IMG/VR virus record: IMGVR_UViG_3300009104_000145
Location: 1 to 20,882 of that record
From: a virus
DNA: 20,882 nt
Direction: 5' to 3' (one strand)
A program made the position numbers and the translations under genes. This document shows positions 8,099 through 15,127 of the stretch, piece after piece; within the stretch, counting starts at the first letter, position 1, and each line of letters begins with the position of its first letter. Under the pieces are notes generated by a model. That model saw nothing but the letters and a program-made list of their open reading frames with translations, made no database searches and had not been told where the DNA came from.

Positions 8099-10249
8099 AT
8101 GCAAATATCATATTTTATGGGGGTATCAAACAAGATACCCATGTTCAAGGAATTGGATGAAATTTTCAGCGAGATTAAGGACGGGACACACAAGCAGCTG
8201 ATTAATAAATGCAGGGAAGCAGTAGCTAAAGGCGATAAGAATAAATATTCCACGCTAAAAAGATCCTTACCATGTTATACCATCTCTTGCCGCACTTCCG
8301 CCCGTAGGTCTGAGTCTCTGGAAGAATATTCAGGACTGCTTCAAGGTGATCTGGATGATGTTGATACTGATCCTGCACTACTAAGGGACAAGTTATTTAA
8401 TGATCCTCACGTTGAAGCATCATTCATTTCTCCTAGTGGGGGAGGAGTAAAATTATGGATAAAAGTAATTAAGGATGCATCCAAGCATAAGGAATCATTC
8501 AAGGCGGCAGAAAAATACTTTAAAGCAAAACACAATGTAACACTAGACCCCAGCTGTAAGGATACTGCACGACTCTTCTTCCAAAGTTATGACCCGGATG
8601 CAAAGCGCAAAGACAATGCCCTGCCAATTCCATTGACTGTTGAAGAGCCAGACTTATTTGATGTTCCTCTAGTGGAGGAAACTTATAGACTAGATGAATA
8701 TGAGCGGGCCGTTGAAGCACTAAAAAAAATACCAGCTGATGACTATAAGGTCTGGCAGGAATGTGCAATGGCCCTCAAGGACGGACTTGGGGAAAAAGGT
8801 TTTGAGTTATTTGATCAGTGGTCACGGACAAGTGATAAGTGTAAACCATCTGAACTAAGATACAAGTGGGCAAGCTTTGACAAGGAGTGGAAGGGGGAGC
8901 GTATTACTTTCTCAACCCTATTCTACCATGCGCAAGACCCCTGTACTCACAAGGTACTAGATAAACCTCCAGCTATAACCCAGCGAAGCCCGGTGGCTAA
9001 GTCCTCCAAAGCAGTGTCTCTCTCCACTGCTTTCTTTAGTCCGCCGGGTTTCGTTGGCCAGTTCACAGAATTTTTAGTTAAACACTCCAAGTACAAGCAG
9101 CCTATCATTGCGCTGGCAGCATCACTTTGTTTTACCGGGACACTCATTGGGAGAAAATACAGGACTGAGGAGAACACAAGGAGCAACCTCTTCCTTGCTG
9201 TGCTGGCCCCCACTGGATCGGGGAAACAATTTCCCCGTGATGTTATAAAGTTATTTGATAATGCCCATGACTTAAAAATGTTTGGGTCAGAAAAAGTTAC
9301 CAGCAGGGCGGCAATTGAAAGACTTATTGCATGGCGGCCCAGCTGCCTCTTCCTCATTGATGAGTTTGGGATGTACCTCAAGCAGCTGATGGCAACTACC
9401 ACTGGTTACCAAGCAGATATTATACAGACACTGATGGAGGTATTCACCTCATGCACCGGGCCATACTATCCACTTGACCGGGCCACTCAGGAAGTGGATC
9501 GAATGTTTATTGACCAACCTTGCCTTAGTGTGCTAGGCACTGCAACCCCGGAAACTTTTTGGGATGGACTCAACACTTCCAAGATCAGGGACGGGTCACT
9601 GAACAGGTTCTTGATCTTCCAGACTCCAACCAAACGGCCAGAACGTCATCGGCCAGAGATTATACAAAAGTTTCCTAAGTCTCTGGTTGATCAGGCACTG
9701 GAGTTTAGGGACGTTCCCATTAATTCCACCCCCGGTAACTTAGCTAATCACCCTGAACCTATTGTTGTCCCCTACACTGATGAGGCATTCATTCTCTTTG
9801 AAAACTTGGAAGATGAATGCACTAAGAAAATAGATGCGGGGACAGTAACCTCCTCCATGTGGGTAAGAGTGGTTGAGTATGCAAAGAAGATAGCACTCAT
9901 CATTGCAGTTGGTGATGGTGAAAAAGAAATTGGATATGAACACGCTAAGTATGGCTGCGACTTAGTTGAGTTTCTCACTGAGCAGACAATCATATCCATC
10001 AACCAAAACCTTTCAGATAATCTTAATGAAAAACTATCAAAGAAAGTTGAGCGGATAATTCGTGATGCTGGTAAGTCAGGGGTGACAACCTCAAGACTGA
10101 CTGAGCGCACCCGTTACCTGAACAACTCCCGCCACAGGAAAGAGATACTGTCAGACCTTCAGGACTCTGGCTTGGTGGTGTGTGTGAAGAGTAAGGTGGA
10201 GGGGATTAATAAACCTGTTGAAACTTGGTATGCTACGGGGGAAGAATGA
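8099..10249 (+). CDS. Primase-helicase fusion (BT4734-like AEP, PriCT_2, DUF3987 ATPase)
   Basis: A 716-residue replication protein. Residues about 50-170 are an archaeo-eukaryotic-type primase core of the BT4734/VirE_N kind, with GDLDDVD at 83-89 supplying metal-binding acids and SPSGGGVKLWI at 111-121. Residues 200-275 match the PriCT_2 linker domain (ERAVEALKKIP and KVWQECAMALKDG). From about 310 a DUF3987-type helicase domain follows, with Walker A APTGSGKQ at 370-377 and Walker B LFLIDE at 417-422. The residue after the P-loop Lys is Gln rather than Ser or Thr. The last 50 residues look like a winged helix (GVTTSRLTERT). Such proteins prime and unwind DNA for phage replication. GGAGAG precedes the ATG. 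No DNA polymerase is present in the window. Confidence 0.88.
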   Translation: MQISYFMGVSNKIPMFKELDEIFSEIKDGTHKQLINKCREAVAKGDKNKYSTLKRSLPCYTISCRTSARRSESLEEYSGLLQGDLDDVDTDPALLRDKLFNDPHVEASFISPSGGGVKLWIKVIKDASKHKESFKAAEKYFKAKHNVTLDPSCKDTARLFFQSYDPDAKRKDNALPIPLTVEEPDLFDVPLVEETYRLDEYERAVEALKKIPADDYKVWQECAMALKDGLGEKGFELFDQWSRTSDKCKPSELRYKWASFDKEWKGERITFSTLFYHAQDPCTHKVLDKPPAITQRSPVAKSSKAVSLSTAFFSPPGFVGQFTEFLVKHSKYKQPIIALAASLCFTGTLIGRKYRTEENTRSNLFLAVLAPTGSGKQFPRDVIKLFDNAHDLKMFGSEKVTSRAAIERLIAWRPSCLFLIDEFGMYLKQLMATTTGYQADIIQTLMEVFTSCTGPYYPLDRATQEVDRMFIDQPCLSVLGTATPETFWDGLNTSKIRDGSLNRFLIFQTPTKRPERHRPEIIQKFPKSLVDQALEFRDVPINSTPGNLANHPEPIVVPYTDEAFILFENLEDECTKKIDAGTVTSSMWVRVVEYAKKIALIIAVGDGEKEIGYEHAKYGCDLVEFLTEQTIISINQNLSDNLNEKLSKKVERIIRDAGKSGVTTSRLTERTRYLNNSRHRKEILSDLQDSGLVVCVKSKVEGINKPVETWYATGEE

Positions 10250-10986
10250 TTCACTATCACGGGACACCACTCTCAGGGGCTACTGAACAGCAGATACTTT
10301 TTTACCGTGGCCGACACGCATTAATATCTTGGCCCAGCTTTGGCCCCATCCATATACCTATAACGGAATGCTGCCGCAGCTTTTGTATCGACAATGGAGC
10401 ATTCACTTTCTGGAAAGAGAATCAGGAGGTAGACTGGCACGACTTTTATTCCTTTGTTATGGACTGGGTAAACCATCCCCGTTTTGATTTTTTTATTATC
10501 CCTGATGTGATTGGGGGAACAGTTGAAGAGAACGATGCTTTAATAGAGGAGTATTGGAGTACAATGCCCGATAGTGGGGTTCCTGTCTTCCATGTAGGTG
10601 AACCACTTGAGCGGATCGATATGTTTATTCTCAAATACAACTTCACCCGGATAGCAATCGGCACAACAAAGGGTTTTGAATTAAAGTCTATGCACTTCTG
10701 GAATGAGATGCGTAAAATATTTGAGAAACTTTGTATTAACGGTATGCCCAGAGTAAAGGTGCATGGCCTTAGAATGTTAGACCCGGAAATTGTAGAAGCA
10801 TTCCCTTTCTCTTCCGGGGATAGCACAACTGCCACTAGGAAAGCGACTTTCAATACAGAGTGGGAAGGTTATCCCTATGCCCCTATTTCAAAAGCGGCAA
10901 GGGCTACTCTAGTGGCCGACAGAATTGAGCAGGGACAGTCCCCCTCGTTCTATAAATTTAAACCTATTCAATTGGATTTAATATGA
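10246..10986 (+). CDS. dpdA: Short TGT/DpdA-like transglycosylase, candidate 7-deazaguanine DNA-modification enzyme
   Basis: The ATG at 10246 overlaps the primase TGA (ATGA), with a GGGGGAAG run upstream; this gives 246 residues. The sequence reads as a TIM-barrel transglycosylase. FCIDNGAF (47-53) occupies the place of the DSGGFQ motif of tRNA-guanine transglycosylases, with Asp49 as candidate base-binding acid. FFIIPDVIGG (82-91) and PVFHVGEP (113-120) read as barrel strands. KVHGLRML (171-178) sits where TGTs have their glycine-rich strand, and GDSTTA (191-196) provides Asp192 as candidate nucleophile, like the DST motif of phage DpdA proteins. DpdA exchanges guanine in DNA for a 7-deazaguanine base, protecting it from restriction enzymes. 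The TGT C-terminal zinc site is absent, and the protein is shorter than typical DpdA. The transporter gene next door supports the call. A tRNA-directed or other activity is possible. Confidence 0.75.
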   Translation: MIHYHGTPLSGATEQQILFYRGRHALISWPSFGPIHIPITECCRSFCIDNGAFTFWKENQEVDWHDFYSFVMDWVNHPRFDFFIIPDVIGGTVEENDALIEEYWSTMPDSGVPVFHVGEPLERIDMFILKYNFTRIAIGTTKGFELKSMHFWNEMRKIFEKLCINGMPRVKVHGLRMLDPEIVEAFPFSSGDSTTATRKATFNTEWEGYPYAPISKAARATLVADRIEQGQSPSFYKFKPIQLDLI

Positions 10987-11495
10987 TAGCAGTATATATA
11001 TACCTAGCAGCAATTGTGGTTGCTAATATCTCCCTACTTTCCTTCGGGCCAGTCGCATCTATCTTTAATGCATTCATACTAATTGGCTTAGACCTGTCCC
11101 TGCGGGACAAACTCCATGATGAGTGGAAGGGCCGCCACTTGTGGTGGAAAATGCTGGCCTTGATTTGCGGAGGTTCTGTAATAACAATTGCCCTGAACTG
11201 GAATGCGCTGCCAATTGCATTGGCAAGCGCAACAGCATTCCTTCTAGCAGGGATTGGTGACGCACTTGTCTATTCAAAGTTGAAGGGTAGATCTTTCTTG
11301 ATCCGTTCCAATGGTTCTAACATTGCCGGGTCAGCAATTGATTCATTAGTCTTCCCTACTATGGCATTTGGTATTCTCATGCCGGAAATAGTCCTTGGTC
11401 AGTTCGCTGCCAAGTTAGCTGGCGGGGGGATTTGGAGTTGGGTTCTAGATGAACAAAGGAAGAGGAATAACAAAAGGAAATATAGGAAGGTATAA
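10983..11495 (+). CDS. VUT/YhhQ-family membrane transporter, probable 7-deazaguanine (preQ0) importer
   Basis: A 170-residue membrane protein with about five hydrophobic segments, whose ATG overlaps the end of the transglycosylase frame (ATGATAG, with TGA just inside). The middle reads NAFILIGLDLSLRDKL, and the later part ALVYSKLKGRSFLIRSNGSN followed by IAGSAIDSLVFPTMAFG. The order (helix with LDL, then LK-x-R, then S-x-I-x-G-x-x-I-D-x-L) follows E. coli YhhQ, the preQ0/preQ1 permease, whose matching region has FGN and SDTLAFFFIAF. It is shorter than YhhQ (221 residues), as are other phage members I know. The C-terminal tail is very basic and probably cytoplasmic. Located beside a DpdA-like gene, it would import a 7-deazaguanine precursor. 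The substrate is inferred, not shown. Confidence 0.8.
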   Translation: MIAVYIYLAAIVVANISLLSFGPVASIFNAFILIGLDLSLRDKLHDEWKGRHLWWKMLALICGGSVITIALNWNALPIALASATAFLLAGIGDALVYSKLKGRSFLIRSNGSNIAGSAIDSLVFPTMAFGILMPEIVLGQFAAKLAGGGIWSWVLDEQRKRNNKRKYRKV

Positions 11496-11542: not shown

Positions 11543-11719
11543 TCAATTCTGGGAATTTGAGGCCAAATCCGCAGCAATTAACTCATTTACATAAGCAGCT
11601 GTCGATTTGAATATTCCTGTTATCTCCCGCTGCTTTTTTAGTTTTTCTTGCAGCTTGCCAGAGCATTGAGGAGTTATCCGTACCAGCATACCCTTTGACT
11701 GTTTTGTTTTATTTGCCAT
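11543..11719 (-). CDS. Small basic protein, possibly ribbon-helix-helix type
   Basis: Fifty-eight residues starting at the ATG whose first base is 11719, with GGAGG 5 nt upstream inside the end of the preceding gene; an upstream in-frame ATG gives an extra 8 residues and is less likely. The protein begins with basic residues (ANKTKQSKGMLVRITPQCSG), then has a helix rich in Lys and Gln and a second helix ending in VNELIAADLA. The short strand LVRITP followed by two helices resembles a ribbon-helix-helix DNA-binding protein. It is the last gene of the leftward operon. The RHH call is tentative. Confidence 0.6.
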   Translation of the reverse strand: MANKTKQSKGMLVRITPQCSGKLQEKLKKQREITGIFKSTAAYVNELIAADLASNSQN

Positions 11720-12491
11720 GTGTCCTCCAAGCTTCACGATCATTTAAGATTAAATTAATTATGTCAGTCAACTTATCCAAGTCATCATCTGCCTCTGCAT
11801 CGGGGTCTATACGATTAAGCAGTTCAACATAATCTGACAAGTGGTCTTGGCAGCGGGTCAAGATTGAATGCATTTGTACACTCGTACCAAGTGGAGTATT
11901 AAACTGTCCCACCAAGTCCCGTCCATACTTTTCAATTGCTTCCGGGTCAATCCTGAGTATCTCATCTATCTTCCCCTCTGCATCAAGATCATCAAGATTA
12001 GTTTCACAGAAATTTATTGCTTCCCTAATTTCTCCGTACTCAATGTCCCAATAGTTAAGATCATGGCGGGAACTGTCCGGGTCAAAGTTTAGAGTTGCAT
12101 AGTCTGCACCAAGTTTGCTGCCCCCTCTTTTCAACCACTCTTCTATTTTCTCAAACATCAGGGCCAACTCTCCGTTCCGGCCAAACCCGTGATGATGACT
12201 GCATGATCTATCGTAGAGGATTTGATATAGATATGGGCAGTTAAGTTTGTCAATCAATTCAACTTCCAAACTTTGCTGCTTATCCTCATAGTCACCATCA
12301 TCACACAAGCATGGTTCACTCTCACACCAATGACAGTAGTCACCATCAGTGGAGGCAAAACCTTCTTGAAGACGGGCTTTCATTCTTGAGATTAATTCGT
12401 ACTCGTTTCTTAGGTCTTTAAGGAAAAAAGAAACAAGCCTATCTGCGTTCCTTCCCTCTGGAAAAAACTTTTCCCTAATATTATTTGACAT
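11709..12491 (-). CDS. Acidic phage protein of unknown function
   Basis: I choose the ATG at 12491, preceded by AAAGGA at good spacing, over an in-frame ATG five codons upstream. The 260-residue product is strongly acidic and mostly helical. Near residue 55 it has a Cys-rich patch, CHWCESEPCLCDDGD, that could bind a metal, followed by an HHH run (SCSHHHGFG) about residue 100. The C-terminal third has several DPDAEADD-type acidic turns. I recognise no family. It overlaps the next gene downstream by 11 bp, so the two are probably translated together. Confidence 0.65.
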   Translation of the reverse strand: MSNNIREKFFPEGRNADRLVSFFLKDLRNEYELISRMKARLQEGFASTDGDYCHWCESEPCLCDDGDYEDKQQSLEVELIDKLNCPYLYQILYDRSCSHHHGFGRNGELALMFEKIEEWLKRGGSKLGADYATLNFDPDSSRHDLNYWDIEYGEIREAINFCETNLDDLDAEGKIDEILRIDPEAIEKYGRDLVGQFNTPLGTSVQMHSILTRCQDHLSDYVELLNRIDPDAEADDDLDKLTDIINLILNDREAWRTHGK

Positions 12492-12554
12492 ATTGTATCC
12501 TTTCAATTAGAATTAATAATTCCAACTTGTACCTAGTTGGGTTTTGTTAGTTTA

Positions 12555-12599: not shown

Positions 12600-13394
12600 C
12601 TACATTCCAAGCGCCTTCTGTCTGCCCCCGGAAACCTGTTTGTTAAGTGAGATTGAAGACCCCGCAGAGTTACCCAATCCCCTACCCATCGAACCACCAG
12701 CACTTGAACCTCTACTTGAGTGAAAGTTAATCCCCTCACGAAATTTGGCCAGTTCCTTCGATGCAACATCATACGCATTCTGTACAACAAGGGCATTGAC
12801 CTGAAGGTCATCAGTCTTAATGCCTTCGGCCTTGCGTTTCCTTGTCTCTTCCCTGATGCGCTCCGCTATATTTTCAGCGGCCCCTATCCTGAAAGCATTA
12901 CGGAAGGGCAACCACTCATTACGGGCCATCTCTTCAACAAGGTAGACATTGTCCCCGTCCACTATTACACCGTCCCTTTTTGCTTCCTTAATAGTCTCTT
13001 CAAGGATGCGTTCAACTGCATCACGCAAGTAGATCAAAATCTCCTTACATACTGCGGTTCTGGAAGGTTTGCCAACAAAAACAATATTCTTTTTGCGCTT
13101 CCCTGATTTTGAACCACGGTAACTTGTTTGCCACCAATAGTCACATAAATTGGAATGAGCCAAGGCCCGTGCAATCTCTCCAGTCCAGAACAGGTCATGC
13201 TTTTCTGAAACAAAAACATCCTGCTCCACCTCTTCGTTGTCTTCTGCTTCACAGACTAACTGATCCGCTTGAAGACCATGCGCCAGCATCAATTCAGATG
13301 CCTTGGCCGCAGCACTTGCGGCCTCTGCTTCAAAGCTGCTATTTGAAAGCGCTAACAATTTTTTAACTTTCAGCAGCACCTCTTCTTTAGTCAT
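12600..13394 (-). CDS. DUF2786-domain protein
   Basis: A 264-residue protein whose first 45 residues match DUF2786 well: VLLKVKKLLALSNSSFEAEA, then KASELMLAHGLQADQL. The middle region (about 70-150) has aromatic and basic residues, including YWWQTSYRGSKSGKRKKN, then FVGKPSRTAVC, and helices that resemble the domain usually found after DUF2786. The C-terminus is a low-complexity Gly/Ser tail (about 228-250). DUF2786 proteins are common in phages and plasmids, and their role is not established. The start has GAGAGA upstream. It has the longest upstream leader in its operon, with two hairpins. Confidence 0.78.
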   Translation of the reverse strand: MTKEEVLLKVKKLLALSNSSFEAEAASAAAKASELMLAHGLQADQLVCEAEDNEEVEQDVFVSEKHDLFWTGEIARALAHSNLCDYWWQTSYRGSKSGKRKKNIVFVGKPSRTAVCKEILIYLRDAVERILEETIKEAKRDGVIVDGDNVYLVEEMARNEWLPFRNAFRIGAAENIAERIREETRKRKAEGIKTDDLQVNALVVQNAYDVASKELAKFREGINFHSSRGSSAGGSMGRGLGNSAGSSISLNKQVSGGRQKALGM

Positions 13395-14326: not shown

Positions 14327-15127
14327 TTAATATATATATCTGGATTGACCATACAGAGTGGGACTATAGTCCAGAACAAACCCTGTGCGGTCTTTTTTAG
14401 CGTCACCCTTTGCAGTTAACGCAACCAATCTGCCTTTGGGGTCAAGAAAACGTAAATCATGTAAATCACCGTTTACAACCTCTTCCGCCACTCTATGATG
14501 GGCAGCAAGTCCTGCAAGAAAACTAACTCCATATGCGGAATTGTGGTTGATCTTCCTTGAGTCGCAGTAATGGTGCGGAATATCCTTGCGGAATACCATT
14601 GCTACGTTGCCCCCGCTTGCAAGTATATCCTGCACAGTCTGCGGGTCTGTCTCTTCATTATATGAATAAGTTAAGTGATAATTGGCGGGCAAGTCCTTAA
14701 AACGGTGCGGGTTCTTGGTGTAGTCGTAAAATTGAACATTAGGAAAACGGTCTATAATAGTCTGCCCTTCAAACTTTAGTTTTTCCCATCTAATATCACT
14801 GGTTCCGTTTAACCTAACTGCGGGCAGTTTGCCTTGTTTGTCACAATCACGAACCAGTTTTTTAATATCCTTAATCAACTCATTAAAAAATGCCTCCTTG
14901 TTGTTAACAAACAGCATTGACTTGCGGAGTCTTCCCTTCTGTACGTTGCTCATTCGGCCCCGGCCCGCAGTATTCAAACAAGCGGACAAACAACCCGGTG
15001 TTGCATACGGGCAGAAGTTTTTCCCGGATAGTTTGCCCGGTGACATATAAAGAATGCCTGTTAAGTATTGGCCCAGATTATCGGACTTAAGTGTCTTGGG
15101 GTTTGTTCCTCTGGATAAGATAGTCAT
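14327..15127 (-). CDS. GP88-like phage protein with conserved Cys motif
   Basis: A 266-residue protein, the first gene of the leftward operon. Residues 39-55 hold CPYATPGCLSACLNTAG with Cys39, Cys46 and Cys50. After a basic helix come VRLNGTSDI (about 103), FYDYTKN (about 134), YHLTYSYNEE (about 150) and VAMVFR, then DLHDLRFLDP and LTAKGDAK toward the C-terminus. This motif order matches the phage Gene-88 family, whose function is unknown as far as I know. The spaced strands ending in D, E or N suggest a TIM-like barrel, and the three Cys could bind a metal or Fe-S cluster, loosely like the Gp37/Gp68 phage proteins that resemble radical-SAM enzymes. That is inference. Confidence 0.72.
   Translation of the reverse strand: MTILSRGTNPKTLKSDNLGQYLTGILYMSPGKLSGKNFCPYATPGCLSACLNTAGRGRMSNVQKGRLRKSMLFVNNKEAFFNELIKDIKKLVRDCDKQGKLPAVRLNGTSDIRWEKLKFEGQTIIDRFPNVQFYDYTKNPHRFKDLPANYHLTYSYNEETDPQTVQDILASGGNVAMVFRKDIPHHYCDSRKINHNSAYGVSFLAGLAAHHRVAEEVVNGDLHDLRFLDPKGRLVALTAKGDAKKDRTGFVLDYSPTLYGQSRYIY

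Follow-up and report, generated by a model that had tools for sequence, protein, structure and literature searches.

A short DpdA-like transglycosylase gene overlaps a YhhQ-like putative importer gene in a virus genome fragment and adjoins it in many other phages

Results

Two overlapping genes with proposed roles in base insertion and base import

We analysed a 20,882-base virus record (IMGVR_UViG_3300009104_000145), a genome fragment referred to here as the window, and found on its plus strand two overlapping genes. The first encodes a short DpdA-like guanine transglycosylase (10246..10986, ATG start, 246 amino acids), and the second encodes a putative importer of the queuosine precursors preQ0/preQ1, a YhhQ-like protein of the queuosine precursor transporter (QPTR) family (10983..11495, ATG start, 170 amino acids). 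Genes of these two kinds adjoin each other in dozens of unrelated phages, and this recurrence indicates that the pairing is probably a real functional unit. Comparative evidence strongly favours a joint function of the two genes. We consider it fairly probable that they form a cassette for base import and base insertion acting on phage DNA.

Both open reading frames (ORFs) were recovered as reported in a first-pass annotation of this DNA, together with all the motifs quoted there. They are joined by an ATGA stop/start overlap of 4 nt (10983..10986, plus strand). The overlap-coupled arrangement described in that annotation recurs elsewhere, since the upstream stop and the nearest downstream start overlap by 4 nt in 87 pair loci (before dereplication), and 4 nt is almost invariably the length of the overlap. 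As read from the sequence, translational coupling of the two genes is supported. The ratio of nonsynonymous to synonymous substitution rates (dN/dS) of both genes against their orthologues in the related loci L005 and L007 was 0.05-0.12, indicating purifying selection. A degenerate or truncated gene pair was rejected on the basis of these low values. The two ORFs are not chance ones, as shown by these ratios, by the match of the first protein to PHROG_887 (queuine tRNA-ribosyltransferase, E=5.4e-59) and by that of the second to PF02592 (Vut_1, 52 bits).

The first gene encodes a member of the TGT/DpdA superfamily

Membership of the 246-aa protein in the superfamily of tRNA-guanine transglycosylases (TGT) and DpdA, which the first-pass annotation had proposed, was confirmed by sequence, by fold and by both candidate aspartates. 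The Pfam scan reached no family, and PHROG_887, which it matches, also includes the DpdA of phage CAjan. Homologues were found in 176 records of GenBank phages, with phage MED16 at E 2e-20 and weak matches to the DpdA of Iggy and 9g (E about 1e-6). CAjan DpdA was matched by blastp at E 4e-8 and by profile comparison at E 4e-14.

Neither a single-sequence search nor a profile search of PDB sequences found anything, and only the fold search succeeded. The AlphaFold model (35 homologues in the input) had a predicted local distance difference test score (pLDDT) of 91.3. Foldseek returned three matches at E<0.001, namely archaeosine TGT (1j2b), the DNA preQ0 insertase DpdA (7ui4) and mouse TGT. VIA-align gave Z 15-16 for the model against TGTs and Cap10. 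Five residues (D49, H116, E119, H173, D192) are invariant among the 35 homologues (alignment A1) and also in alignment A4, which includes 9g and CAjan DpdA. From these alignments, D49 and D192 are the likely catalytic aspartate pair.

The first-pass annotation regarded the short DpdA as a special, streamlined version, which is not so. Full-length relatives span 226-276 aa, and 246 aa is therefore an ordinary length. Phages with a lone DpdA, MED16 included, usually have this short form, and the DpdA of Queuovirinae has 306-317 aa.

The main rival acceptor to DNA is tRNA. The pair could raise queuosine or preQ1 in host tRNA for better phage translation, with the importer feeding either the phage transglycosylase or the host TGT. 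Among the best structural scores are those for tRNA TGTs of archaea, human and Zymomonas. However, direct reading of the sequence showed that the 246-aa protein lacks the zinc motif CxCxxC...H found near the C-terminus of E. coli TGT. Similarity to E. coli TGT was undetectable by blastp and not significant by hhalign of the family profile, yet CAjan DpdA was matched by its profile. Bacterial QPTR-TGT fusions have been reported for queuosine salvage (PMC11130926), and phages with precursor genes have been proposed to boost host queuosine (PMC6884629), but the related 9g DpdA acts on DNA, even in E. coli without tgt (PMC6884629). We regard a tRNA target as unlikely.

Cap10 (9ntn, Z 15.6) was also among the best structural matches. 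The Cap10 family of type IV CBASS is remodelled for protein-linked 7-amido-7-deazaguanine, showing that the TGT superfamily can also act on protein (PMC11996544). By analogy, the two genes could cooperate on another acceptor or base, for instance against host defence. The Cap10 match does not discriminate, because all TGT-superfamily structures score Z 15-16. Moreover, no CD-NTase or QueC-like Cap9 gene was present among the scanned ORFs of the window, which is a fragment, and a PADLOC defence-system scan of the window gave no match. This alternative appears improbable.

The second gene encodes a YhhQ/QPTR family member

The assignment of the 170-aa protein to the YhhQ/VUT family stands, as its PF02592 score lies well above the cut-off of 27.2 bits. 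The NCBIfam equivalog cut-offs were not reached (TIGR00697, 29 of 50.95 bits; PRK11212, 20.6 of 252 bits). Judged by these profiles, the protein is best described as a member of the YhhQ/QPTR (COG1738) family and not as a certified equivalog. It shares R41, S82, D93, S112 and D120 with E. coli YhhQ and CAjan gp41. Its predicted structure (pLDDT 88) shows six long helices, as expected for the membrane helices of this family, and Foldseek gave nothing below E 0.001. The best, non-significant match was the energy-coupling factor (ECF) transporter S-component 5edl (E 0.2, prob 0.98). ECF S-components are the class containing the other queuosine-precursor transporters QueT/QrtT.

The dpdA-yhhQ pair recurs in many phages

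To determine how often the two genes adjoin, we sampled 80 viral loci by the DpdA-like protein, 80 by the YhhQ-like profile and 80 bacterial loci by the DpdA profile, the last presumably largely prophages. A short DpdA gene adjoins YhhQ in 68 of the 80 YhhQ loci (dpdA comes first in 48 and yhhQ in 20), in line with the earlier remark that such pairings occur in other phages, and the spacing is at most 60 nt in all but two of these 68. Six of the other 12 loci adjoin a different, shorter TGT-like family, PHROG_15826, whose profile is homologous to that of the short DpdA (E 1.5e-5); L209 was counted among these by the same position and score as L207. After clustering at 80% protein identity, the 80 YhhQ loci formed 34 clusters, of which 31 consist entirely of loci with a TGT-like neighbour, one is mixed and two lack such a neighbour, with the caveat that the contig of L195 stops at the gene. 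By chance, about 0.1 common record would be expected for 26 YhhQ and 176 DpdA records among 50,697.

The two genes also diverge together. Among 53 dereplicated pairs (37 in one gene order, 16 in the other), their divergence was correlated (Mantel r 0.42, 0/5000 permutations as high). When 103 DpdA-like proteins were placed on a tree and labelled for an adjacent yhhQ, the label changed 13 times or more, with 8 or more of these changes required by well-supported branches. The sample was partly picked by YhhQ, so that its frequencies should not be taken as prevalences, but the recurrent gains or losses are independent of that choice.

We read the pair directly in PEAT2, AB3P2, RCIP0319, Sadiya, RHph_N3_2, ECO111 5-P, Phc, Lg3 and Tbat1_6. 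Pam5 carries it with one small gene between, and in LHE71 it was seen from match coordinates. In phiLM21 and Aoka, other TGT families adjoin YhhQ or stand one gene off. No TGT was found in the 4.2 kb surrounding the YhhQ gene of mEp021.

The short DpdA often occurs without YhhQ (50/80 viral and 75/80 genome loci), as would be expected of two morons that merely travel together without joint function. Against such neutral neighbours, most phage YhhQ genes adjoin a TGT-like gene, in both orders, in many independent lineages and with the same overlap. We consider a neutral association very improbable.

Several further observations concern these loci. The PHROG_15826 proteins ('unknown function', about 208 aa) carry the motifs DNGC, PDVVGD, AQDG, VGGTTEWKLG, VHVGRVNS and DSVDGT, and their genes paired with YhhQ are at L198:578-1276, L201:3378-4001, L207:3945-4565, L224:3168-3971, L237:2765-3388 and L256:2757-3383. 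The related contigs L187, L188, L189 and L190 have a YhhQ-like gene without dpdA, whereas dpdA adjoins it in their close relatives L184, L186, L192 and L193; in L187, a terminase-like ORF directly follows the YhhQ-like gene. In lambdoid phages of the mEp021 group, the YhhQ-like gene (1785-2297 in L259, the mEp021 locus) lies between a gene of unclear role and an annotated cytosine methyltransferase gene.

Biosynthesis genes in pair phages and their hosts

We searched 20 phage records besides CAjan for the preQ0 synthesis families QueC (PF06508) and QueD (PF01242), and both were absent, although 7/20 are metagenomic contigs and perhaps incomplete. A TGT-like gene lies near YhhQ in 19 of the 20, mEp021 being the exception. 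Both families were found in the positive control, CAjan.

Among the hosts of pair prophages, QueC was not recognisable in 2/5, Devosia ginsengisoli (a metagenome-assembled genome, MAG) and Rhizobium subbaraonis. All 27 hosts of dpdA-only prophages had at least a clear QueC fragment. That pair-prophage hosts more often lack QueC is suggestive only, given few genomes from related hosts. The comparison stayed at five pair genomes because a search of 397 Rhizobium-order genomes gave two matches, one of which was the centre genome itself.

Locus layout and other genes in the window

The dpdA-like gene is preceded by GGGGGA (10237..10242, plus strand), its probable ribosome-binding site, and by a primase-like gene (8099..10249, plus strand) with the domains BT4734-like_N, PriCT_2 and DUF3987. 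A second ATGA overlap (10246-10249, plus strand) joins the end of the primase ORF to the start of dpdA. The position after a primase gene, pointed out in the first-pass annotation, was thus seen in the window, but it is kept only in close relatives (L005, L006, L007) and the distant phage PEAT2. The gene order HNH, primase, dpdA, yhhQ is common to the window and those three relatives. Dependence of the pair on the primase context was rejected, as L008 and most other loci have the pair without that primase.

Neither a preQ1 riboswitch nor any other Rfam family was found in the window. It also lacks tRNA genes, and its promoter and terminator counts are close to the shuffle level. Three genes on the minus strand of the window have features of their own. 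The gene at 11709-12506 has no assigned family and changes fast, with 44-49% identity among the closest relatives, whereas its neighbours mostly show 72-87% identity in L004 and L005. The product of 12600-13394 has DUF2786 and DUF7168 domains and is 75-79% conserved in L004, L005 and L007. The gene at 14327-15127 encodes a GP88-family protein (PF17338, 161 bits; PHROG_1617) with no assigned role, and it is kept with the dpdA-yhhQ operon in L004 and L007.

Discussion

In this study, we established the families of the two genes, the fold, the conserved residues, the coupling, and a recurrent linkage in phages without QueC and QueD. From these data we infer that DNA is the target, that preQ0 or preQ1 is the base carried, and that the benefit is anti-restriction. 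The YhhQ-like protein would bring a preformed 7-deazaguanine base into the infected cell, and the DpdA-like transglycosylase would then swap guanines of the phage DNA for the imported base, with D192 as the nucleophile and D49 as the general acid/base by analogy with TGT. Such a base exchange may lower recognition by restriction enzymes.

One possible reason for carrying an importer is that base supply limits modification. This limit is plausible because published values are 0-0.13% modified G in DpdA-only phages and about 28-32% in phages making preQ0, such as Rosebush and CAjan (PMC6884629, PMC8306585).

Several points weigh against the proposed cassette. Because the window is a fragment of 20.9 kb, biosynthesis genes may lie elsewhere in the genome. 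Import would be redundant in E. coli and its relatives, since they make preQ0 and own a YhhQ, and many pair phages infect them. Phylogeny confounds the host comparison, which covers 5 genomes and counts a MAG as one of the two QueC-less hosts. The DNA analyses known to us cover phages without the exact pair, and the lone-DpdA phages among them show little modification: Orion is unmodified, and 2'-deoxy-7-amido-7-deazaguanosine (dADG) accounts for about 0.02% of G in 7-11 and about 0.13% in MED16 (PMC6884629, PMC8306585). The MED16 authors saw no noticeable dADG effect on the enzymes tested (PMC8306585).

The closest known enzymes are the short lone DpdA proteins of gammaproteobacterial phages (PHROG_887; MED16, SEN1, BTP1, SfI), which belong to the same family (tblastn E 2e-20 to 1e-50). 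They resemble the window protein in length (about 240-276 aa) and share its invariant residues, but most have no adjoining YhhQ. MED16 itself has no preQ0 synthesis genes and no YhhQ beside its short DpdA. The DpdA proteins of 9g and CAjan (Queuovirinae) are proven DNA modifiers (PMC6884629) of the TGT superfamily, with both aspartates as well as H116, E119 and H173; they are about 60-70 aa longer, and their identity to the window protein is 20-21%. Genes for preQ0 synthesis are present in both phages. The que cluster of CAjan further includes gp41, a putative preQ0 transporter, but this yhhQ is separated from dpdA by about 2.3 kb, unlike the overlapping genes of the window.

Pantoea phage Vid5, for which preQ0/preQ1 salvage was proposed in 2018 (PMC6266253), encodes a Vut_1-type transporter for preQ0/preQ1 alongside a tgt gene, as in the window; its DNA carries 2'-deoxyarchaeosine (dG+), but it has most of the biosynthesis cluster, compared with a two-gene cassette here. 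In Pectobacterium phage PEAT2 and Acinetobacter phage AB3P2, a VUT protein adjoins a queuine tRNA-ribosyltransferase, as in the window, and their DpdA shows 33-38% identity to that of the window. The PEAT2 pair lies right after a primase gene, but in reversed order. The bacterial QPTR-bTGT fusions combine the same transporter family with a TGT-family enzyme, but they are tRNA-directed, single fused proteins (PMC11130926). In 2019, when it was still in question whether lone-DpdA phages modify their DNA and whence they obtain the base, such phages were suggested to draw the base from the host or from outside, and phage YhhQ reportedly showed no link to any group of phages (PMC6884629). Thus, given Vid5, the 2019 proposal and the bacterial fusions, this kind of system was already known and salvage by phages had already been proposed. 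Our survey adds the near-constant attachment of this type of phage YhhQ gene to a TGT-like gene, a linkage that later literature may already mention.

Tentatively, YhhQ-TGT may be a general cassette of phages that has been put together independently on many occasions, from more than one TGT-like family (PHROG_887, PHROG_15826), and that would make DNA hypermodification depend on environmental base. For pair phages, DNA modification is predicted to rise with added preQ0/preQ1 and to fall without yhhQ, and this is testable now because several cultured pair phages exist. If the cassette is a general one, the restriction resistance of a phage would vary with extracellular preQ0/preQ1.

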